A stretch of DNA of 23,644 nt from IMG/VR virus record IMGVR_UViG_3300015360_000202, positions 1 through 23,644 of that record. One strand, 5' to 3'. Below the pieces are notes generated by a model that did no database searches, had not been told where the DNA came from, and was given only the letters and a program-made list of their open reading frames with translations. Each line of letters starts with the position of its first letter. Positions within the stretch are counted from its first letter, which is position 1. The position numbers and the translations under genes were made by a program. Source of the DNA: a virus. Of the stretch, positions 831 to 19,963 are shown piece by piece.

Positions 831-1838
831 TCAGTTGGGAATCCACTGGAGCCGGTTACCGCCATAGGCCTCACTAGGAAGAGTCGTCGAGGTCGTCCAA
901 GTCGTTAGATCCTCCGACCGATAGTGCGTACCCAAGGCTCCGCTTTTGATGGCTATGTATTGAGTCCCGTCGTACCCCAACGAAACGCATTCGTTGGGCA
1001 GGGTCGCTTCCTGGGTCCAAGGGTTCAAACCATCTGGGGATGTGAGCGTGTAGCTGGAGGACCCAGTTCTAACAAGCAAGACGAACTGCGAACCATCCCA
1101 TAGCAGGTCAGATGGGTAGCTGGTTCCAGAGTCGATAAAGGTCGTTGTAACAAGGGTCCAAGAGGTCCCGTTGGTTGAGTGAATGTAGACAAGATAGTTG
1201 GTGCTGTTGTTTCTGCCCCACCTCACCATCCGGGTTCCACTCCAAGCAAGCCGAGATCCCACGTCCCAATAAAGATTAACGGCCCCGGCCGTTCGCAGGG
1301 TCCAGGTAACCCCCGTCGGACTCGTCATGACTAGATTCGTGGCGCTGTTGCAGGAGGCGACGAAAAGGGATAATTCAGGGACCCAGATAACAGTCGACCA
1401 ATTCCGGATTCCACCTACCTGATTCGACGAAAAGGACCAAGCGGTCCCGTTCGCACTATAAATCATGCTGTACCCGATATCCTGCTCACCCACCGCGACG
1501 ACATTGGTCCCATTAGAGGCCAACGAGCTCCACCCGTATCCAACGTCCTCGTAAGGGGTGGTTCTATTTGTCCAGGTGGCCCCATGGTCACTAGAGGTGA
1601 TGACATCATCGACGTCCCCGTACTGGTTGGCCGTGACCCATAACCCAGCATGAACGGCGATGTTCGCTTTCACGTTGGTAGAGGCCCAGTATCCGGACAG
1701 GTCTATGTTGGACCAAGTAGCCAGGTTGTCATCGGAGATAATGAAGCGGGAATCGCTATCGGCCGTCAGGACCCAACGCCCAGCGGGAGGTGGGGGTGGA
1801 GGACCGCCGGCAAACCGGAAGGAATTAAGAAGTAGCAT
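831..1838 (-). CDS. Predicted seven-bladed beta-propeller (Asp-box-like) adhesin
   Basis: I choose ATG at 1838 (335 residues), one base after the upstream TAG, with AGGAG upstream; an ATG at 1856 lies inside the previous gene and is rejected. After MLLLNSFRFAGG comes a run of six prolines (13-18), a likely linker. The rest holds seven repeats of an S-x-(D/N)-x-x-x-x-W type motif, at about residues 33, 80, 126, 170, 219, 265 and 306, spaced 41-49 residues apart: SDDNLATW, SSDHGATW, SANGTAW, SPTGVTW, STNGTSW, SPDGLNPW and SEDLTTW. These are Asp-box (BNR-like) repeats, so a seven-bladed propeller is likely. I see no sialidase active-site arginine triad, so binding rather than catalysis is favoured. 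Its place beside the tail tip suggests a receptor-binding or tip-decorating role. Confidence 0.85.
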   Translation of the reverse strand: MLLLNSFRFAGGPPPPPPAGRWVLTADSDSRFIISDDNLATWSNIDLSGYWASTNVKANIAVHAGLWVTANQYGDVDDVITSSDHGATWTNRTTPYEDVGYGWSSLASNGTNVVAVGEQDIGYSMIYSANGTAWSFSSNQVGGIRNWSTVIWVPELSLFVASCNSATNLVMTSPTGVTWTLRTAGAVNLYWDVGSRLAWSGTRMVRWGRNNSTNYLVYIHSTNGTSWTLVTTTFIDSGTSYPSDLLWDGSQFVLLVRTGSSSYTLTSPDGLNPWTQEATLPNECVSLGYDGTQYIAIKSGALGTHYRSEDLTTWTTSTTLPSEAYGGNRLQWIPN

Positions 1839-1839
1839 T

Positions 1840-2586
1840 CTATGCTCTCCTGCCAATTAGATACACCTTCAACCCAGTAGCGGTTCCATCCCCCACCTGA
1901 AACACATCGATGGTGATCTCGGCATCATCGGCCAGGGAAGAAGGCGAGTCCCCGATCACCGCAGGAGCTGCCGCCGTGACTGAGGTCTTCTCGGTGTTGT
2001 CAATTGTCAATTTCGTGGACAGTATGCTGACCCCGGTTTCTTTGATGTCGACCGTAAAAATACTCCCGCTAGCTTGGGCCACCGTCAAGCTACATCGCAC
2101 CGATGTCAGAGAAAAGGCGTAGGGCATACGGAACGTAACCTTGGCTGTTCCGGTCGTGATAGCGGAGGTCTCGTCAGAGATGGCGATCGCTAGGGCATGG
2201 GTCGAGTCAAACCCGGAGGCGTCGGCCTGGCCATGAATGCCTCCATAACCGGCCCTGTGATCCTCAATTGATGTCGCCACCACGGTATCCGTGATGACCT
2301 TATAAACGCGGCCGTAATCGGCTAGATTGTTCCAGTTGGTTGTGCCGGTGGAGACTGATGCGACTCCGGTAGCTCTGGCAACCACAACGTAATTTGAAGT
2401 CGAACCAGTCAGAGCCAAAGTCCCTGCAGATATCAGAGTCCCGCCCCAGCGGCCGCCCCAGTAACCCCAGGTCAGGCCTGACGCTGTCGTGGGATTCTTT
2501 GCGAAGACCTCTTGATGCGCCAGGCCTTCAAAGTTTTCATTGACCGGAACCTCGGGGCTGGCCATCTGATCAATCCAGTTTTGCAT
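1840..2586 (-). CDS. Tail-tip-associated structural protein (248 aa)
   Basis: ATG at 2586 has AGGGA about six to seven bases upstream. The N-terminus (MQNWIDQMASPEVPVNENFE, residues 1-20) and the following GLTWGYWGGRWGG resemble phage structural proteins in which this head piece precedes a variable tail. The second half (ITTGTAKVTFRMPYAFSLTS, then VRCSLTVAQASGSIFTVDIK) has the alternating pattern of a jelly-roll or other beta-sandwich. I assign no named family and no enzyme motif. Its place after the tip protein and before the propeller gene makes a tip-associated or adhesion protein likely. Its stop is one base before the start of the propeller gene. Confidence 0.78.
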   Translation of the reverse strand: MQNWIDQMASPEVPVNENFEGLAHQEVFAKNPTTASGLTWGYWGGRWGGTLISAGTLALTGSTSNYVVVARATGVASVSTGTTNWNNLADYGRVYKVITDTVVATSIEDHRAGYGGIHGQADASGFDSTHALAIAISDETSAITTGTAKVTFRMPYAFSLTSVRCSLTVAQASGSIFTVDIKETGVSILSTKLTIDNTEKTSVTAAAPAVIGDSPSSLADDAEITIDVFQVGDGTATGLKVYLIGRRA

Positions 2587-12992: not shown

Positions 12993-13345
12993 TATTGGCC
13001 CCTGTTGACCCCGACCACGCAATTGAACTGGATTTCGTGGTTCTGGGTTTTCACGTTGACCGGGTCCCCGATGATGCTATAAATAAGATCGCGGTAACGG
13101 CCGACGAGCCGGAGTCGATAGGTGGAGTCAATAGCAGCGGAGGCCAGTGACCATCGGGCCACGATCAGGACATGAACCCCGGCAAGGATCTGATCGGTCC
13201 CGTTTCCCTCGAATCCCTTTACTGGCTCAACCCCGGAGTTGAGCAGCATGTGAAAGGCCCACGAGGTGTCCATCTGACCGGCGCTTCCTTGGACGCGGAC
13301 CGGCTTCTCTACTATGAGCCGGGTGTTAAGCCTCCCGGACCTCAT
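12992..13345 (-). CDS. Head-tail adaptor / head closure protein (SPP1 gp16-like)
   Basis: I choose ATG at 13345, which forms an ATGA overlap with the connector stop and has a G-rich sequence upstream. A longer frame from 13447 would read through the connector gene out of frame and is rejected. The 117-residue product begins MRSGRLNTRLIVEKPV and contains the all-beta pattern of the Phage_H_T_join family, ending RYRDLIYSIIGDPVNV. Members act as stoppers that close the head after DNA packaging. Position between connector and gp10-like genes fits the usual order. The stop overlaps the next ATG (TAATG). Confidence 0.82.
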   Translation of the reverse strand: MRSGRLNTRLIVEKPVRVQGSAGQMDTSWAFHMLLNSGVEPVKGFEGNGTDQILAGVHVLIVARWSLASAAIDSTYRLRLVGRYRDLIYSIIGDPVNVKTQNHEIQFNCVVGVNRGQ

Positions 13346-13992
13346 GCCATCCCCCGATCCACTTTGTAGTTCCGCATCAGCCGCTCGGCCCCTAGCGGGA
13401 TATGCTCCAGCTTGACCATGCTCACATCCCCCCGGTTCTCGAACCAATGCTCAATCATCAGCAGCATCGCCTGCTTTATGCTTTTTGGAAGTTCTGGCAT
13501 TGGTGGGGAATCATTGGCGGACCCATAACCTGCCAGGTACCGGATGCGTACCGCGTTTGAGGAGGCTGTGAGCGCTGGCCAGGACGTCGACCCCTGAGCC
13601 GGGATCAGCACGGTTTCTCGCTCCGATACTTCTTGGGTCTGGTAATCAGTGATCTGCTGATCGACGCCCGAACCATCTGTGTAGGTGAGGCTGATCAATT
13701 CAACCACTGGGCCTTTGAGCGGAATGCCGAGCTGGTCGCCGGATGGGTACCATCGATGGGATATGGTCGGACACGGGAAGGTAGAAAGCCGCTGCTCAAG
13801 GACTCGTTCTTTCAGGCACAGCCCAGTGAATTTTTCGGCATGCTCTCTCGCCGTAACAAGAAGCCCAGCAATCAAAGCGTCCTCGTAGTAAACGACTGGG
13901 CTATCCAAGATGTCCAGTCTAAGCTGACGATAGCAATCGACCAGCGAGACCGGCTCAGTCGATACCTCGGAGATGATTTTAGGTTCGTTCAT
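13342..13992 (-). CDS. Head-tail connector (HK97 gp6/phiE125 gp8-like)
   Basis: ATG at 13992 lies in an ATGA overlap with the GT8-like gene. The 216-residue protein shows the usual pattern: an N-terminal SLVDCYRQLRLD helix (about 16-27), an EDALIAGLLVTAREHAEKFTG helix (about 37-57), a central beta region with GPVVELISLTYTDGSG, VRIRYLAGYG, and a C-terminal helix (PKSIKQAMLLMIEHWFENRG, about 168-187). Family members form the ring that joins the portal to the rest of the neck. It begins the canonical neck gene order here, so the portal and capsid genes should lie upstream, beyond 23644. The assignment is firm at family level. Confidence 0.88.
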   Translation of the reverse strand: MNEPKIISEVSTEPVSLVDCYRQLRLDILDSPVVYYEDALIAGLLVTAREHAEKFTGLCLKERVLEQRLSTFPCPTISHRWYPSGDQLGIPLKGPVVELISLTYTDGSGVDQQITDYQTQEVSERETVLIPAQGSTSWPALTASSNAVRIRYLAGYGSANDSPPMPELPKSIKQAMLLMIEHWFENRGDVSMVKLEHIPLGAERLMRNYKVDRGMA

Positions 13993-14693
13993 TTGGAAGT
14001 TCCGGTGATTCTACTACTTGAGGCTAGGGCGGCTTTCCATTCTCCGGCCATGGGGGCGTCCTTGTAATGATCCAGGCCCGGAACCCCAGCCGTCCAGTGC
14101 AGGAGTCGCGCATCCGGGTTTTCGCCGAATTCATCCACCAACCAGTTCCAAGATTCCGGGATATCGCCGATGTACCTATCCCTGATAAATTGGAACTGGA
14201 GAAGTTCCAAAGGCTTGAAGTCAGCCAGAGAGGTCGGGGTTATGGACCGCCAGGAAAAGTGTGCGCAATTTATGATCATCACGCTTGCCCACTGTTTCCT
14301 GTCGTAGTCCTGATTCTGAGTTTCGAGAGTGGTTCCGATGAACTTGACCGGGTGCCGCGTCTTGTACTGCAGCTTGACCACTTGCACGGCCATGAACGGG
14401 TTGAACAGGGAAGCAAGTTCCTTCAAGTCACCACGAACCAGCATGTCGGAACCATCGACGAAGATGGCCATGCCCTGATACCCGGTTATCCATGGGACCA
14501 GAAACCGACTAAGGGTGAATGAGTTGCTGCCCTCCGGAATCACGCCGTCAAATGAATCGGTGATCCTCCGGGTGATCGGACAAAGCCCAACCGGAACCGA
14601 TGAGTGATCGAGAACGGATTTGACGAAAGCAGAAGTCCCGGCCTCCACTCTGGACTCGTGGCCGAAAAACAGGGGCAGAACATATCTAGCCAC
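13989..14693 (-). CDS. GT8-like GT-A glycosyltransferase
   Basis: The start is GTG at 14693, with AAGGA seven bases upstream. The 234-residue product has the SRFLVPWITGYQGMAIFVDG segment (about 62-81) leading into an acidic DGSD metal-site motif (D80 and D83), in the place of the GT-A DxD. It is followed by MLVRGDLKEL, as in GT8-type enzymes where a D-x-L-x-L helix follows. ASVMIINC (about 136-143) corresponds to the acceptor-side NSGV region. LLHWTAGVPG (about 197-206) provides the C-terminal His of the metal site. DGSD rather than a strict DxD is a deviation, though the fold logic is intact. The gene ends in an ATGA overlap with the head-tail connector, so the cassette is coupled to the neck operon. 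Confidence 0.75.
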   Translation of the reverse strand: MARYVLPLFFGHESRVEAGTSAFVKSVLDHSSVPVGLCPITRRITDSFDGVIPEGSNSFTLSRFLVPWITGYQGMAIFVDGSDMLVRGDLKELASLFNPFMAVQVVKLQYKTRHPVKFIGTTLETQNQDYDRKQWASVMIINCAHFSWRSITPTSLADFKPLELLQFQFIRDRYIGDIPESWNWLVDEFGENPDARLLHWTAGVPGLDHYKDAPMAGEWKAALASSSRITGTSK

Positions 14694-15240
14694 TTTGAGT
14701 TCCTTTTTTCGCCACCATCCGCATGTCCCTCATGGAGGCCCCAGCGGCATGCCACTCTGGCTGCTCCTCCTCGATATCGACGAACCCGGCGCGCTCCAGA
14801 ACCTTGCGCAGGCTTGCGGGATGGTATCCCCACCGGTGGAGCATGTGGGAGTCCTGGGGGCGGTTGTCGCCGTAGAGTCCCCACATCCCGTACTGATCCG
14901 GGTGCTTCCCAGCAAGGGTGAATCCTGTGAGGAGGTTTCTGGCGCACTTGATGATGTCCGGGCATTCGACCACAATCTTGCCGCCAGGCCGCAGAATACG
15001 GAACCATTCTGCTAAGGCTTTTTCAGCCTCCCATGGTTCGATATGCTCGATCCCATGGATGCACATAAGCTCATCGGCTGAGTTGCTAGGTAGTGGGATC
15101 TCACGCATGTCAGCCAAGATCTGGGGCGGACCCTTAGCCTTCGGGTGATTGCTCACCACCACATCCACATTGATCCATCCCGGTAGGACGTGCCTACCGG
15201 AGCAGACGTTTACTTTGATTGCAGACTGACCCTTATCCAT
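14686..15240 (-). CDS. SAM-dependent methyltransferase (Methyltransf_11-like)
   Basis: The start chosen is ATG at 15240, preceded by GGGAGG at about seven bases, a near-ideal ribosome-binding site. A longer frame from 15282 is rejected. The 184-residue product has a short motif I region (KVNVCSGRHVLPGWINVDVV, about 9-28), ILADMREIPLPSNSADEL (about 41-58), the typical HGIEHIEPWEAEKALAEWFR (about 62-81) and LRPGGKIVVECPD (about 83-95). That is the classic Methyltransf_11 pattern used by enzymes acting on sugars or small molecules near glycosyltransferases. It probably caps a sugar by O-methylation. It overlaps the next GTG by eight bases. Confidence 0.82.
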   Translation of the reverse strand: MDKGQSAIKVNVCSGRHVLPGWINVDVVVSNHPKAKGPPQILADMREIPLPSNSADELMCIHGIEHIEPWEAEKALAEWFRILRPGGKIVVECPDIIKCARNLLTGFTLAGKHPDQYGMWGLYGDNRPQDSHMLHRWGYHPASLRKVLERAGFVDIEEEQPEWHAAGASMRDMRMVAKKGTQSG

Positions 15241-16004
15241 TGCCAAGCCTCCCATGCTTCGTTGTGTCCCCAGTTCCACCAACCCAGTCGGCGCAGAAAC
15301 TCGGTGCGTTCTTCCACTGTTGGGTTCGGGTTTCCCTCGTACAGGGTCCGCGCCGCCCCGTCATCCGTCTCAACCGGAATTCCCTGCCGGCAGGCATCCA
15401 CCGCCACGTTGGAATGCCGGCACACCACCAGCGAGCATCCCACTAGAGCCTCCTCTATCGGCACCCCTCCCGAGCAGAGCTGCGTTCCTGGGAGTCGACT
15501 AACGTCCCTTCCCTTGGGTCTCCACAGGATCGTCCGACCCGGGTAACGCCTTCTCAGCTCGGCCAGCTTGGCCTTCTCCCACTGTAGGTAGGAAAGGCCG
15601 TACAGGGCTGTGCTTTTTAGCCCCAGACCCACAAGCATGATAGGACCATTTGCCAGATCCGCCGTGTTCGTGCACGGGATGCGAAACCGGCTCCTGTTCG
15701 GACAACTCCCCAGCTGCTGATCCGTCGGATGTAGTGAGTCAATGGAGAGCCGCAGATGGTCATCACGTTCCCAGTACCCCAGGTCCCAGATTACTACCCT
15801 CCCACCACGCTTGAGGTGGGCCCTTCGAGCCTCGGTTCTGGAGGCCAGGCCAGCCCCATACATCATCAGGTTAGGGTACTTCCCGGTGTACCCCTTCGAG
15901 GCGACGGCAAACTCCGAACCAGCCTTCAGCAGGGCGTCCAGATGGTGATGTCCCCGCTTGGCCATCTTGGCATCGTTAATTAAAATTTCAAAATCTATGG
16001 GCAT
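15210..16004 (-). CDS. KpsS/capsule-transferase-like glycosyltransferase, paralogue 2
   Basis: I choose ATG at 16004 (264 residues), two bases after the upstream TAA, over an in-frame GTG at 16034 that would overlap the upstream gene by 28 bases. A GGA lies upstream. Key parts: VVIWDLGYWERDDHLRLSID (about 70-89), RTILWRPKG (about 157-165), and CRHSNVAVDACRQGIPVETD (about 195-214), equivalent to the NS..AL..G.PV motif of KpsS-like transferases. FLRRLGWWNWGHNEAWEAWQW (about 236-256, shared with paralogue 1) ends the domain. Similarity to the product of 17363-18130 runs across both halves, suggesting duplication and divergence. It probably adds a second, different sugar. It overlaps the next gene by 31 bases. 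Confidence 0.72.
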   Translation of the reverse strand: MPIDFEILINDAKMAKRGHHHLDALLKAGSEFAVASKGYTGKYPNLMMYGAGLASRTEARRAHLKRGGRVVIWDLGYWERDDHLRLSIDSLHPTDQQLGSCPNRSRFRIPCTNTADLANGPIMLVGLGLKSTALYGLSYLQWEKAKLAELRRRYPGRTILWRPKGRDVSRLPGTQLCSGGVPIEEALVGCSLVVCRHSNVAVDACRQGIPVETDDGAARTLYEGNPNPTVEERTEFLRRLGWWNWGHNEAWEAWQWIRVSLQSK

Positions 16005-16006
16005 TT

Positions 16007-16849
16007 TTATTTCCACAGGATCGACCGGACCCACTCCCGGTATTGAGTGGAGATGGTAGGAAGGTCCAACCGGGCATCCAAGAACCCCCGCTGTATGATC
16101 CGTCTCCGGACTGGTGATTCCAAATCCGACAGCGCCTCAAGTAGCTCCACCTCATTGGTGGCCCAACGCTCATGTCCCGAGGCCGTCTCTCGGTACCCGG
16201 CCTCGGGACTCAAGATGGCCGGTGTTCCCGAGGCGTGAGCATTTGCCAGCTTGACGTTTGATTTCCAGTGAGCCGGAGCGTATCCGCTCTGGGCTCTAAG
16301 CCCCACGACCACGTCGAGGTCTGCTAAATCTACCGCTTGGTTGATCCACTGAATACCCTTTCTCGAACAGTACCTCCGGAGCCGGTCGTCCCAGTGACCA
16401 AGATAATTCGAGCCGCCCTGATACCCAATTTTAACGATGCTAGGTCTAATCGGGTTCAGGGGCATGCCTGCCATGGGGTGGTGCGGTAACCAGAGAGTTG
16501 GGATTCCAAATCTGTGGAAGTCCAGCTCCATCTGCCGCGTGGCTGCGACGATGCCTACAGGTTTCCACAAATCCATCTGGCCAGCGGCCCACGCCATGCA
16601 GGTGGTCCGGTCCCAGTCGTTGCCGTGAGGTTGGGGCCAGGCATCCACGACGTCCCAGATTACCGGGACCCCTTCCCGGCGAAGGGCCAGAACTTGGGCA
16701 AGATCGGGTCGCTTGATAACCACGGCCGCATCAAAACCTCGGAACTCTTTTGCTTCCCGCAGAACCCGGGCTCCGAAAGCCGAGCCGAGCTGCTCCCCTC
16801 TGATTTTCCAGCTACCCGATGTGCCCCGACCGGTGAATAAGATGTTCAC
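16007..16849 (-). CDS. GT-B (GT4-like) glycosyltransferase
   Basis: The start is GTG at 16849, overlapping the previous TGA (GTGA), with GGAG seven bases upstream. The 280-residue product shows an N-terminal Rossmann start (MNILFTGRGTSGSWKIRGEQ, residues 1-20), VIWDVVDAWPQP (about 63-74), and a C-terminal donor-binding half with WKSNVKLANAHASGTPAIL (about 195-213) followed by SPEAGYRE. The acidic residue in SPEAGY lies where retaining GT-B enzymes carry their donor-contacting Glu. At 280 residues it is shorter than the roughly 350-400 usual for GT4, as is common for phage versions. It probably transfers a sugar from a nucleotide donor; substrate unknown. It is followed after two bases by the second KpsS-like gene. 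Confidence 0.78.
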   Translation of the reverse strand: MNILFTGRGTSGSWKIRGEQLGSAFGARVLREAKEFRGFDAAVVIKRPDLAQVLALRREGVPVIWDVVDAWPQPHGNDWDRTTCMAWAAGQMDLWKPVGIVAATRQMELDFHRFGIPTLWLPHHPMAGMPLNPIRPSIVKIGYQGGSNYLGHWDDRLRRYCSRKGIQWINQAVDLADLDVVVGLRAQSGYAPAHWKSNVKLANAHASGTPAILSPEAGYRETASGHERWATNEVELLEALSDLESPVRRRIIQRGFLDARLDLPTISTQYREWVRSILWK

Positions 16850-17397
16850 GTCCGAACTCCAAACCCAAATATCTCAGTTCTCAAAAAAGACCGGGTGCCA
16901 TCGGCGTCAATTTTACCCAGGCTTCCGAACGCCTCCGTGAGCTTGTGGGGACTTGCGTACACCAGCGAACTCCACCGGACTGATGGGAACAGAGACCGGA
17001 CCCCAGAGGCCGTGAACCGGAAGTAGTCGTCAGGATATCCATGCACCCGCCAGACAAAGGGGACTGAAAGATGGAGGGTAGCTGCTGGGAACATCAGCAG
17101 CTCTAAGTTTCTGGCGATCAACCAAGGTCGCGGGGAATGTTCCAACACCGAGATGCACTCGACGTGATCGAAAAACCCGAGGGCTTGCGTCTGCTGGTAA
17201 TCCTCCAAGTTGGCCACGATGTCAACTCCGGGACCGTCACTAAAGTCAACCCCTACTGCATACTCAAAGGCCGCAGTTCTATCCTCCCGGCCTGGGTAGA
17301 CCTTGGACCCCGCAATCAAGGTCCGACCCGACCGAGGTTTCACAAACCGCGAAACAAAGTCGTTATGAGCCGAGTAGGTGGCTGAAGGCTTTGCCAT
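16846..17397 (-). CDS. Class I SAM-dependent methyltransferase
   Basis: ATG at 17397 has GAGGA about eight bases upstream, inside the previous gene. The 183-residue product is short for a class I methyltransferase but keeps the order of elements: a modified motif I (TLIAGSKVY, about 26-34), the acidic strand VGVDFSDGPGVDIVANLED (about 48-66), motif IV with FDHVECISVLEH (about 76-87) and the late strand LHLSVPFVWRVHGYPDDYFR (about 108-127). This resembles Methyltransf_11-type enzymes found beside glycosyltransferases, which O-methylate sugars. The canonical Gly-rich loop is weak, so altered cofactor binding is possible. It ends in a GTGA overlap with the next gene. Sugar methylation is inferred from context. 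Confidence 0.7.
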   Translation of the reverse strand: MAKPSATYSAHNDFVSRFVKPRSGRTLIAGSKVYPGREDRTAAFEYAVGVDFSDGPGVDIVANLEDYQQTQALGFFDHVECISVLEHSPRPWLIARNLELLMFPAATLHLSVPFVWRVHGYPDDYFRFTASGVRSLFPSVRWSSLVYASPHKLTEAFGSLGKIDADGTRSFLRTEIFGFGVRT

Positions 17398-18130
17398 TTT
17401 CGATTTCCTCTATTGTCCAGATAGTCCAAGCCAAACGGCGGAACATTCCCAGTCGATCCGCGTCGACCCGTTTAGGGAGGCCCGGCCACTCCGACAGGGG
17501 CCGCCCGGCCCCGGCCCCTACCCACTGCGGGAACCCGTACCAAACGGGGACCCCTTCCAGCAAAGCAGTCAAGGCCGCAGAGCTGTTCCAGGTGACCACC
17601 TGCTGAACCTTCTCCAGATCATCGGTTAACGCGACCCTGGGGGGTTCTTTCCCTGGGTGTGGACGTATCCTCCCACCAATGCTCCTTTGAACGCGCTCCG
17701 CCCACCCTGATGGCGCAGCGATCCCTTTTTCACCGATCCCCCGCTGCCCGAATATCAAGGTCTCGGTTCCACCGACCCTCCACGGGGCCAGATCCACCTG
17801 CCAGGAGTCCCAACGGGCCGGCCCCCCGTTTTGCCAGTCACCCGCTCCGGCGTGATGCCCGAGCGCCAGACTAAACCACTCCTGACCCCTCCAATGTTTA
17901 CCCAGGTATCCATTTTCAGCTACCAGCACCGTCCCGCCCTTGGACTCCCAGAACTGGGCCTGCTCGTCATAGCCAGTGTACCGGTTCCAGATGAGTAGCA
18001 CGTCTCCAGGCTCCGGTACTGACAGGTCATCAGTCGGGGAAAATCCCGCGGTGGCCAGGCCCCTTGAAAACCTTTCCCTGCGGTAGTGCAGACTCTGACG
18101 TAGCCGGTTGACTGCTTTGCGCATTTTCAT
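17363..18130 (-). CDS. KpsS/capsule-transferase-like glycosyltransferase, paralogue 1
   Basis: ATG at 18130 overlaps the preceding TGA (ATGA). In the 255-residue product, LIFGQRGIG (about 125-133), RIRPHPG (about 154-160) and TWNSSAALTALLEGVPVW (about 180-197) match the C-terminal sugar-nucleotide domain logic of KpsS/KpsC-like capsule polysaccharide transferases, which show a His-Pro motif and an NS..AL..G.PV motif. The last part (RRLAWTIWTIEEIENGKAF, about 231-249) matches the tail of the gene ending at 15210, so the two are paralogues. The N-terminus is basic. Likely role is transfer of a sugar to a glycan or protein acceptor in the host cytoplasm; donor and acceptor are unknown. It overlaps the following methyltransferase gene by 35 bases. 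Confidence 0.72.
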   Translation of the reverse strand: MKMRKAVNRLRQSLHYRRERFSRGLATAGFSPTDDLSVPEPGDVLLIWNRYTGYDEQAQFWESKGGTVLVAENGYLGKHWRGQEWFSLALGHHAGAGDWQNGGPARWDSWQVDLAPWRVGGTETLIFGQRGIGEKGIAAPSGWAERVQRSIGGRIRPHPGKEPPRVALTDDLEKVQQVVTWNSSAALTALLEGVPVWYGFPQWVGAGAGRPLSEWPGLPKRVDADRLGMFRRLAWTIWTIEEIENGKAFSHLLGS

Positions 18131-18777
18131 TCACTTCTAGTACAGATTCCAAGCGGCGCTGCCTGACCATGGGTAGCGGCCCTCTCCATCTCCAAATGCT
18201 CGAGCAAGTTCCCCATCGGGAACGCCGTGATCCGGCTACCTGGGGTGCAATTGATGACCTCTATACCAAGACCTTTCAGGGCGGCCCCGAGTTGATTGAA
18301 GCGGTCAATCCAGACCGGGTACCTTTCCTGTGGGGTTGTCCGCAGGGGACTTTGATGCTCGGGGTGCCAGTGCTGGCCCCCCATGTCAAACCCACAAAGT
18401 AGGATCTTGGAAGCCCCAGTGTGGGCCGCGAGATGCACGGCTTGGTACCCACTATTTCCACCGGTGCGCAAGGCCCCTGGGTCTTTATCAAACCCAACGG
18501 TTCCCGAGTTCCGGAGCTGCAGGACCCCTTTGACCCGACCCACAGAGACCTTTAGACCGGCGAAAGCAAGACTGTCCGGGTTTGTACTCCACCACTCCTC
18601 GTCGGCCGCATAGAGACAGCTCGCGTTTGGCATCAAGCGGAAAGTGGAGTTGACAACGATTGACTGGACTCCACAGGCTCCAACGGCCTCGGCAACCTGC
18701 GGGCTCATGCTGGGACCGCTGGCAAGCACCGCCACGGTCTGACCAACCCACATCTGCGGAACGGTCCAGAGTTTCAC
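18127..18777 (-). CDS. DUF115/sialyltransferase-like protein (probable glycan-modifying enzyme)
   Basis: The start is GTG at 18777, supported by GGAGG seven to eight bases upstream within the end of the collagen-like gene. The 216-residue protein begins with a Rossmann-like strand and VAVLASGPSM (about residues 15-24). It has a central GNSGYQAVHLAAHTGASKILLCGFD block (about 107-131) and a late NCTPGSRITAFP (about 176-187). This GPS, then NSG/A-helix/GxD layout is shared by the DUF115 (MAF flagellin glycosyltransferase-like) and GT42-type sialyltransferase folds. Reaction and substrate are unknown. It is the first gene of the glycan cassette and ends in an ATGA overlap with the next. Assignment to a nucleotide-sugar enzyme fold is moderately secure; the exact activity is inference. 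Confidence 0.7.
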   Translation of the reverse strand: MKLWTVPQMWVGQTVAVLASGPSMSPQVAEAVGACGVQSIVVNSTFRLMPNASCLYAADEEWWSTNPDSLAFAGLKVSVGRVKGVLQLRNSGTVGFDKDPGALRTGGNSGYQAVHLAAHTGASKILLCGFDMGGQHWHPEHQSPLRTTPQERYPVWIDRFNQLGAALKGLGIEVINCTPGSRITAFPMGNLLEHLEMERAATHGQAAPLGICTRSE

Positions 18778-18778
18778 C

Positions 18779-19963
18779 TCAGTACCTCCGCCCGTCCTGG
18801 GTCATCTGGGTTAGATCCTTGCCGGCCCGGCCCTCGGCTCCGCGGTCCCCTTTGTCCCCTTTGTGCCCGTCGCGGCCATCGCGCCCACGTTTGGCCACCA
18901 GCTTCCAGCAATCCGAGACGCCTGGCTTCTCTGCTGTCTCGGAGGAGCAGTGCCAGAGACTCCCGTCCCAGGTGACAGTGTCCCCGGACTCAAAGGTGGA
19001 TTCCTTCCAAATCCCGCGGTAGACCATCGCAGGGATACGGACCGGAATGCTCAAGATGTCGCCCTCCGAGGTCTTGATGTTGATGTCGAAATTCCGGAGC
19101 TGCTCGGTAACCTCAACCTCGATGCCAGCAATCCCGGCTACGATGCAGTTCCACCCATCGATTCCCGCTGTTGCGCTGCGCGATACCCAAAGGCCACCAA
19201 GATGTTTGGCCCAGGTTCCGCGCTGGTATTTCCTGCTCAAGTCAATGGCCGGAAGGACGTCGATCGCAAAGGCATCCCGGCCCGGTTCCCCGTCGGGGCC
19301 ATCGCGGCCGGCCTTACCGTCGGTCCCTGGGGCTCCATCCTTGCCATTGATCCCTGGGGCTCCATCCTTGCCGCTGACTCCGGGATTACCTTGAATCCCT
19401 GGGGCTCCATCCTTGCCGCTGATTCCGGATTCTCCCTGCAATCCTGGGGCTCCATCCTTACCGTCGGTACCTGGGGCTCCATCCTTGCCCCATGCGCCTG
19501 CCGCTCCATCCTTACCGTCGGTCCCTGGGGCTCCATCCTTGCCATTGATCCCTGGGGCTCCCTGCAATCCTGGCTCTCCGGGAATTCCATCCTTGCCATT
19601 GATCCCGTCGGCTCCATCCTTGCCGCTGACTCCGGATTCTCCCTGCAATCCTGGCTCTCCGGATATTCCATCCTTGCCGCTGATTCCGTCAGCTCCATCC
19701 TTACCAGCGGGTCCAACCTCCCCGTTCTTTCCGGCCGGCCCCGGCTCACCAGTTACCCCGGGTTCTCCCTGCGGACCCTGAGTTCCCTCTTGCCCTGGGG
19801 ACCCGGCCTGTCCCGGATCACCAGCGTCCCCTTTTGGGCCGGGCGTGAGAGCGAGCACTTCGACCTGCTCCAGTTTAGACCTTAGGGGCTTCAGTTCCTC
19901 CCCCACGTATTGCTTGATCGCGGTCAGAACTCGGTTGACAAATTTGGTAGTAGTTTCACTCAT
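18779..19963 (-). CDS. Collagen-like fibre protein with carbohydrate-binding-like module
   Basis: ATG at 19963 is preceded by AAAGGC and lies 11 bases after the previous stop. Residues 1-41 form a helical N-terminal segment that could trimerise. Residues about 42-229 are an almost unbroken Gly-X-Y collagen-like tract with many GKDGAPG, GISGKDG and GEPG units. Residues about 314-357 (YRGIWKESTFESGDTVTWDG onward, with SLWHC and a later CWKLV) resemble the small aromatic carbohydrate-binding modules (CBM5/12 type) common on phage fibres. A second short collagen tract follows (about 360-383). Collagen-like phage proteins form trimeric fibres. Position before the neck genes suggests a head or neck fibre, though tail attachment cannot be excluded. 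The TGA is followed after one base by the GTG of the first sugar-modification gene, so the two are probably translationally coupled. Confidence 0.88.
   Translation of the reverse strand: MSETTTKFVNRVLTAIKQYVGEELKPLRSKLEQVEVLALTPGPKGDAGDPGQAGSPGQEGTQGPQGEPGVTGEPGPAGKNGEVGPAGKDGADGISGKDGISGEPGLQGESGVSGKDGADGINGKDGIPGEPGLQGAPGINGKDGAPGTDGKDGAAGAWGKDGAPGTDGKDGAPGLQGESGISGKDGAPGIQGNPGVSGKDGAPGINGKDGAPGTDGKAGRDGPDGEPGRDAFAIDVLPAIDLSRKYQRGTWAKHLGGLWVSRSATAGIDGWNCIVAGIAGIEVEVTEQLRNFDINIKTSEGDILSIPVRIPAMVYRGIWKESTFESGDTVTWDGSLWHCSSETAEKPGVSDCWKLVAKRGRDGRDGHKGDKGDRGAEGRAGKDLTQMTQDGRRY
19277..19840 (-). repeat. Gly-X-Y collagen-like coding repeats
   Basis: This is a nine-base (G-X-Y) periodic tract encoding residues about 42-229 of the collagen-like protein. 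Higher-order units of 18 to 27 bases recur, visible on the plus strand as repeated gggctccatccttgcc blocks. These near-identical units are recombination-prone and could change fibre length. The periodicity also opens a long shadow frame on the opposite strand. Confidence 0.9.

Follow-up and report, generated by a model that had tools for sequence, protein, structure and literature searches.

The IMG/VR virus record IMGVR_UViG_3300015360_000202, a stretch of 23,644 bases that was analysed at its full length and is called the window here, was examined through its open reading frames (ORFs) and their translations. ORF calling places all genes of interest on the minus strand. Seven ORFs at 13989-18777, which we refer to as the cassette, are flanked by a collagen-like gene and the head-tail connector. 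An earlier note, made from the DNA letters alone, had described them as seven consecutive, overlapping genes in the late structural operon, and this description holds: all ORFs are present on the minus strand and the coordinates are correct. The features are given in the order of transcription (aa, amino acids).

18779..19963, minus strand: collagen-like gene, a candidate acceptor only (PF01391, E 4.9e-36; one-base gap to gene 1)
18127..18777, minus strand: gene 1 (D115), minimal Maf-like, GT42-related glycosyltransferase of 216 aa, proposed initiating enzyme (phrog_4603; PF01973 in relatives; model fold)
17363..18130, minus strand: gene 2 (KPS1), 255 aa, fold of beta-Kdo (3-deoxy-D-manno-oct-2-ulosonic acid) transferases, keeps (K/R)xHP, Gly133 in place of the nucleophilic Asp (model, Foldseek/VIA, motif counts)
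16846..17397, minus strand: gene 3 (MT1), probable S-adenosylmethionine (SAM)-dependent methyltransferase of 183 aa (weak matches to phrog_32762, PF13489 and UbiG chains)
16007..16849, minus strand: gene 4 (GTB), GT4-like GT-B glycosyltransferase of 280 aa (PF13524/PF13579 in relatives)
15210..16034, minus strand: gene 5 (KPS2), 274 aa, divergent gene-2 paralogue that lacks the HP motif (iterative profiles, motif counts)
14686..15240, minus strand: gene 6 (MT2), SAM-dependent methyltransferase (PF08241, Methyltransf_11)
13989..14693, minus strand: gene 7 (GT8), GT8-like glycosyltransferase of 234 aa (phrog_28018, E 8.2e-27)
13342..13992, minus strand: head-tail connector, which marks the conserved insertion point (phrog_442, E 1.2e-13; phrog_40, E 1.4e-11)

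Transcription runs through two fibre-like genes, a 102-aa gene, the collagen-like gene and the cassette into the connector, beyond which follow head closure, Neck1, tail terminator, major tail protein, tape measure and a gene-transfer-agent-like tail tip. By profile, the cassette is flanked by a head-tail adaptor, Hc1, Neck1 and the major tail protein on one side and by the collagen-like and fibre-like genes on the other. The coupling to the neighbours is as the earlier note had it, with one free base after the collagen-like gene and an overlap of 4 nucleotides (nt), ATGA, between gene 7 and the connector. Within the cassette, the overlaps are 4 nt (genes 1/2), 35 nt (2/3), 4 nt (3/4), 28 nt (4/5) and 8 nt (6/7); genes 5 and 6 share 73 nt if the annotated TTG start of gene 6 at 15282 is used and about 31 nt with the ATG at 15240, which is the likelier start and has GGGAGG just upstream. 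No promoter-like or terminator-like site was found on the minus (coding) strand within 13989-18777, and co-expression with the virion genes, which had also been claimed before, is thus the simplest reading. Membrane-span-like segments are absent from all seven proteins (maximum 19-residue Kyte-Doolittle mean 1.48), which indicates that they are soluble.

Residues 222-366 of the collagen-like protein match the C-terminal extension of portal proteins (phrog_1289, E 6.8e-52; phrog_2271, E 1.1e-33), and in relatives (L002:3873-4757, L007:6426-7412) a gene with this C-terminal domain stands directly after the portal gene.

Folds and active sites of the cassette enzymes

Gene 1 matches phrog_4603, annotated 'alpha-2,3-sialyltransferase' (E 2.8e-36). 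Its score against PF01973 is 22.8 bits, under the curated cut-off of 34.6; among D115 family members, 49 of 51 match this profile (E<=0.1). The fold search that the earlier note had proposed for the cassette proteins was carried out with models of genes 1 and 2. For the AlphaFold model of D115 (predicted local distance difference test, pLDDT, 96.2), the best match is Maf of Magnetospirillum, 5mu5 (VIA Z 15.9, root-mean-square deviation (rmsd) 3.1, 181 of 216 residues), followed by an MptE-like pterin kinase (HPPK) at Z 12.1 and the GT42 enzyme CstII at Z 11.4, with unrelated folds at about 5.5. This match is a VIA realignment of Foldseek's candidates and not Foldseek's own ranking, in which nothing was found at E<=1e-3 and only generic Rossmann folds appeared. 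When the D115 profile was compared with PDB sequences, CstII was found at E ~0.01, ranked below ferritin fusion artefacts. GPS, NSG, GxD and His residues are conserved across 51 diverse members of the family.

Maf enzymes O-glycosylate Ser/Thr residues of flagellin. One such enzyme is able to put Kdo on Ser/Thr, using cytidine monophosphate (CMP)-activated Kdo (PMC11339370). D115 is like Maf (PF01973, formerly DUF115) and GT42 in the fold of the catalytic domain and in the GPS and NSG/GxD motifs; a CMP-keto-sugar donor is predicted for D115 too and, from the likeness to Maf, also a cytoplasmic Ser/Thr acceptor. Maf enzymes, however, are multi-domain and encoded with flagellin, whereas D115 is a short protein encoded among phage virion genes. 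Because of its length and its score under the curated Pfam cut-off, we term it Maf-like and not a Maf enzyme.

For the KPS1 model (pLDDT 95.6), all 25 Foldseek matches at E<=1e-3 are beta-Kdo transferases (KpsC/WbbB/KrkA), which reach VIA Z 9.5-12.8 against 7.0 for the next fold; the top match is KpsC 8fuw (Z 12.8, rmsd 4.0, 220 residues). A KPS1 profile gave no match among PDB sequences, the kinship to Kdo transferases being visible by fold alone, and the Pfam model Capsule_synth had 0 matches in 20 related contigs and thus misses the KPS family. Iterative profiles seeded from gene 2 or gene 5 recover nearly identical sets, which identifies the two as paralogues. Of the two KpsS-like transferases proposed earlier, the Kdo-transferase fold (gene 2) and the paralogy (gene 5) are therefore borne out, but the catalytic residue differs from that of known Kdo transferases.

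In retaining Kdo transferases, the nucleophilic Asp is part of QXXXD (PMC12887879, PMC10148158), and (K/R)XHP binds CMP (PMC12887879). Motifs were counted in 147 aligned phage KPS proteins, with the residue register taken from the sequence alignment among these paralogues. The KPS1 type keeps RxHP, E72, N73 and R130 in 65/65 proteins (R156-P-H158-P159 in the window). In the KPS2 type (n=73), Asp replaces E72 in 73/73 and Lys replaces the motif His in 63/73. The KPS3 type (n=9) has the complete QXXXD and RxHP in 9/9; its members are L078, L080, L088, L103, L109, L115, L119, L134 and L142, and several of them lie near D115 and neck genes. Among isolate records, this type was seen in a single environmental genome. 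Phages thus carry both motif-complete and altered versions. Compared with KpsC (GT107), WbbB (GT99) and KrkA (GT140), KPS1 has the same whole-length fold and the (K/R)xHP CMP motif, but Gly at the position of the nucleophilic Asp in QxxxD, and KPS2 is also without the HP motif; moreover, lipid-linked acceptor machinery is not nearby in the cassette. Since RxHP is kept and the Asp is replaced, we infer that KPS1 has retained CMP-sugar binding but may act by a different, possibly inverting, mechanism. For want of the nucleophile, it is regarded as a protein of Kdo-transferase fold and not as a member of GT99, GT107 or GT140. Several KPS1-fold proteins were also seen in Tetraselmis virus 1 (a giant algal virus; BFVD), where they are annotated as capsule polysaccharide biosynthesis proteins.

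The enzyme classes named in the earlier note, namely DUF115/GT42-like, GT-B (here GT4-like), GT8-like and, for gene 6, methyltransferase, proved largely right by profiles. Relatives of gene 4 match PF13524 (6/14, best E 1.3e-5) and PF13579 (4/14), and 13 of 27 relatives of gene 7 match PF01501 (Glyco_transf_8; best E 4.9e-9), with no match for the window protein itself. Of the two methyltransferases that had been claimed, gene 6 is confirmed (PF08241, E 4.7e-10), while gene 3 is probably one as well, on weak matches: phrog_32762 (E 0.0064), PF13489 in 3/6 relatives (best E 0.0048) and UbiG O-methyltransferase chains (E 0.016).

Distribution and related gene sets in isolate phages

A scan with the KPS1 alignment found 65 viral loci, against 6 loci in 84,980 bacterial and archaeal species genomes, all of them in metagenome bins and mostly of Pseudomonadota. 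On these counts, the KPS1 family looks essentially viral. The D115 scan yielded at least 589 relatives; the locus counts are based on the best 80, among which 58 had a called D115 gene. Since the loci were selected for their likeness to the window protein and are often truncated, the counts are descriptive and do not represent a random sample. A capsid, portal or collagen-type gene lies no more than 6 kb upstream of D115 in 40 of the 58 loci, and a neck or tail gene follows downstream in 37, directly adjacent in 21 of these. The window-like order D115-KPS1-GTB-KPS2-MT2-GT8-connector is found, with variations, in L002, L012, L013, L074 and others. In dozens of contigs, including those of unrelated phages, D115 relatives are thus found again at the junction of head and neck genes, and as the order of the genes is repeated across many independent contigs, the arrangement is more than chance. 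The cassette, which the earlier note had treated as a feature of this window, is real and, beyond that view, belongs to a widespread class that extends to isolates. Hosts named for D115 phages are Gram-negative among the matches listed, except for one algal virus label that probably denotes a bacteriophage.

The KPS2 and GTB proteins of the window had no match among isolate phages. In phage D3, orf7 (D115 type) lies between capsid and connector, and a methyltransferase, orf13, is encoded further on; D3 orf12 (L005:7748-8575) has no Pfam match and starts with a GLGD motif as in heptosyltransferases. PAJU2 is like D3, except that D115 is placed after the adaptor. In P1 (79592-82150, L166), the late pmg region contains two D115 relatives in tandem, pmgO and pmgP (E 1.5e-46 and 7.3e-14), and after them ppp and pmgQ, the last of which is annotated as a glycosyltransferase. 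Virus S20, labelled algal yet tailed with a bacteriophage gene set, has 9 genes, among them a GT-D and a GT2 enzyme, that separate its head genes from head closure. CcrColossus gp131 (L003:18556-19386) is a GT9 enzyme (PF01075, E 4.3e-8) and indicates, together with D3 orf12, that D115 gene sets swap glycosyltransferase types. The sets of D3, PAJU2, P1, S20 and the Caulobacter jumbo phages resemble the window in that D115 is accompanied by genes for glycosyltransferases, methyltransferases or both and is placed among late or structural genes; their content, however, varies (GT-D, GT2, GT9-type), and of these phages the Caulobacter ones alone have KPS as the window does. No reported function was found for these D115 sets, the paper on the D3 capsid says nothing of glycosylation, and no paper on the present cassette was found in the open-access literature that was searched.

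At the end of the tail module of the window (831-1856), a protein repeats an S-x-D-x-G-x-T-W-like pattern that resembles Asp-box/BNR propellers; it has no Pfam match.

Proposed role and rival explanations

We consider it fairly likely that the cassette carries out soluble, cytoplasmic O-glycosylation of one or more virion proteins during late expression, with a putative target and a putative sugar. Virion glycosylation was also the preference of the earlier note, and this direction is backed by the Maf-like fold of D115, the recurrent head-neck position, and the solubility of the proteins together with the lack of membrane or lipid-carrier components; the modified virion protein itself is presumed. 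Judging by its fold, D115 would take a CMP-activated keto-sugar and link it to Ser/Thr in a protein of the head, neck, tail or fibre, and KPS1, by its fold and CMP motif, would attach another such sugar. KPS2 and the GT4-like and GT8-like enzymes would then lengthen the chain, and one or two methyltransferases would cap it, as their families suggest. A CMP-sugar synthetase (PF02348) was found in none of 20 related contigs, in which the positive controls were detected, so the donor would be host-made, most likely the CMP-Kdo of bacteria that bear lipopolysaccharide (LPS). The benefit would be a particle surface that is shielded or tuned.

Several observations weigh against this proposal. In all 65 KPS1 proteins, Gly (QRGIG in the window) stands where characterised Kdo transferases of the same fold have their nucleophilic Asp. 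One constant upstream neighbour of D115 was considered as the target and rejected, because this gene varies among connector, collagen-like, portal, capsid and closure genes, so that no single target stands out. Ser/Thr-rich C-termini as a sign of the target were likewise rejected, none being seen on capsid or tail-tube proteins. Finally, the Caulobacter jumbo phages carry D115-KPS1-KPS2-GT8-methyltransferase after the tail/fibre genes and beside the lysis genes.

This last arrangement fits a remodelling of host surface glycans (Kdo-containing LPS or capsule) late in infection, which would block re-adsorption or aid release. As the usual role of Kdo transferases and of GT8 and GT9 enzymes is the synthesis of LPS or capsule, host surface modification is still the main rival, as in the earlier note. 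We nevertheless regard it as unlikely, given that no membrane-spanning protein, flippase or lipid-carrier enzyme is among the seven, that the cassette is placed among head-neck genes in unrelated phages, and that the nearest fold to gene 1 is a protein glycosyltransferase. D115 might instead be a structural or assembly factor, its catalytic fold recruited for a non-catalytic role in the particle and the sugar enzymes being cargo. Both the D115 protein of PAJU2 and a phage Eowyn relative carry the annotation 'structural protein', P1 pmgO and pmgP are called morphogenetic, although they are non-essential, as is pmgQ (PMC10695390), and 40 of the 58 D115 loci have no KPS, GT8 or GTB gene nearby. 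Conservation of the GPS, NSG, GxD and His residues and the recurrent association of D115 with glycosyltransferases and methyltransferases in a fixed order make such a role improbable.

Phage glycosyltransferases often act on DNA. Glycosylation of a hypermodified base would accord with this frequent target (discussed in PMC12619734), and since the window is fragmentary, base-modifying genes could sit elsewhere. The thymidylate-synthase/hydroxymethylase family PF00303, however, occurs in 0/20 related contigs, which may be incomplete but in which the positive controls were detected; for PF12851 (Tet/JBP), the count of 0/20 carries no weight, as no positive control was detected. With the location in the virion operon and the Maf-like fold of gene 1, DNA modification is improbable, in line with the earlier note, which had ranked it low.

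Virion glycosylation, the reading we prefer, has the real precedent in mycobacteriophages to which the earlier note had pointed. According to the account of Freeman et al. 2023 in PMC12619734, the capsid and tail tube proteins carry glycans at their C-termini, and phage-encoded glycosyltransferases are proposed to act on particle proteins, as we propose for the window. As in virion glycosylation systems, the glycosyltransferases of the window cassette are encoded together with virion structural genes. The mycobacteriophage glycans were measured, whereas the window system is known from genes, motifs and predicted folds, and hosts and probably enzymes differ. The enzymes of the window are near Maf and KpsC; their mode would be like the mycobacteriophage system if the proposal is right. 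Serotype-converting gtr systems, which modify the host O-antigen, use a membrane flippase and a membrane-bound glucosyltransferase, for which the seven soluble proteins offer no counterpart; the window covers only part of the genome.

Maf/Kdo-type enzymology in Gram-negative phages is new relative to mycobacteriophage virion glycosylation. It is possible, and we suggest this only tentatively, that Gram-negative phages widely carry Kdo-based O-glycosylation of the particle, in which a Maf-like primer would use host CMP-Kdo and extension would fall to a new Kdo-fold family that is probably inverting, as the nucleophilic Asp is absent.

Glycosylation of phage particles was demonstrated only recently, in mycobacteriophages. 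With a marker among the head-neck genes that is present in the classical phage D3 and has relatives in P1, virion glycosylation in Gram-negative phages becomes directly testable. If true, the proposal would provide a function for the long-uncharacterised D3 orf7 and P1 pmgO and pmgP, and it would bring in a transferase family whose fold is known and whose active site is altered.

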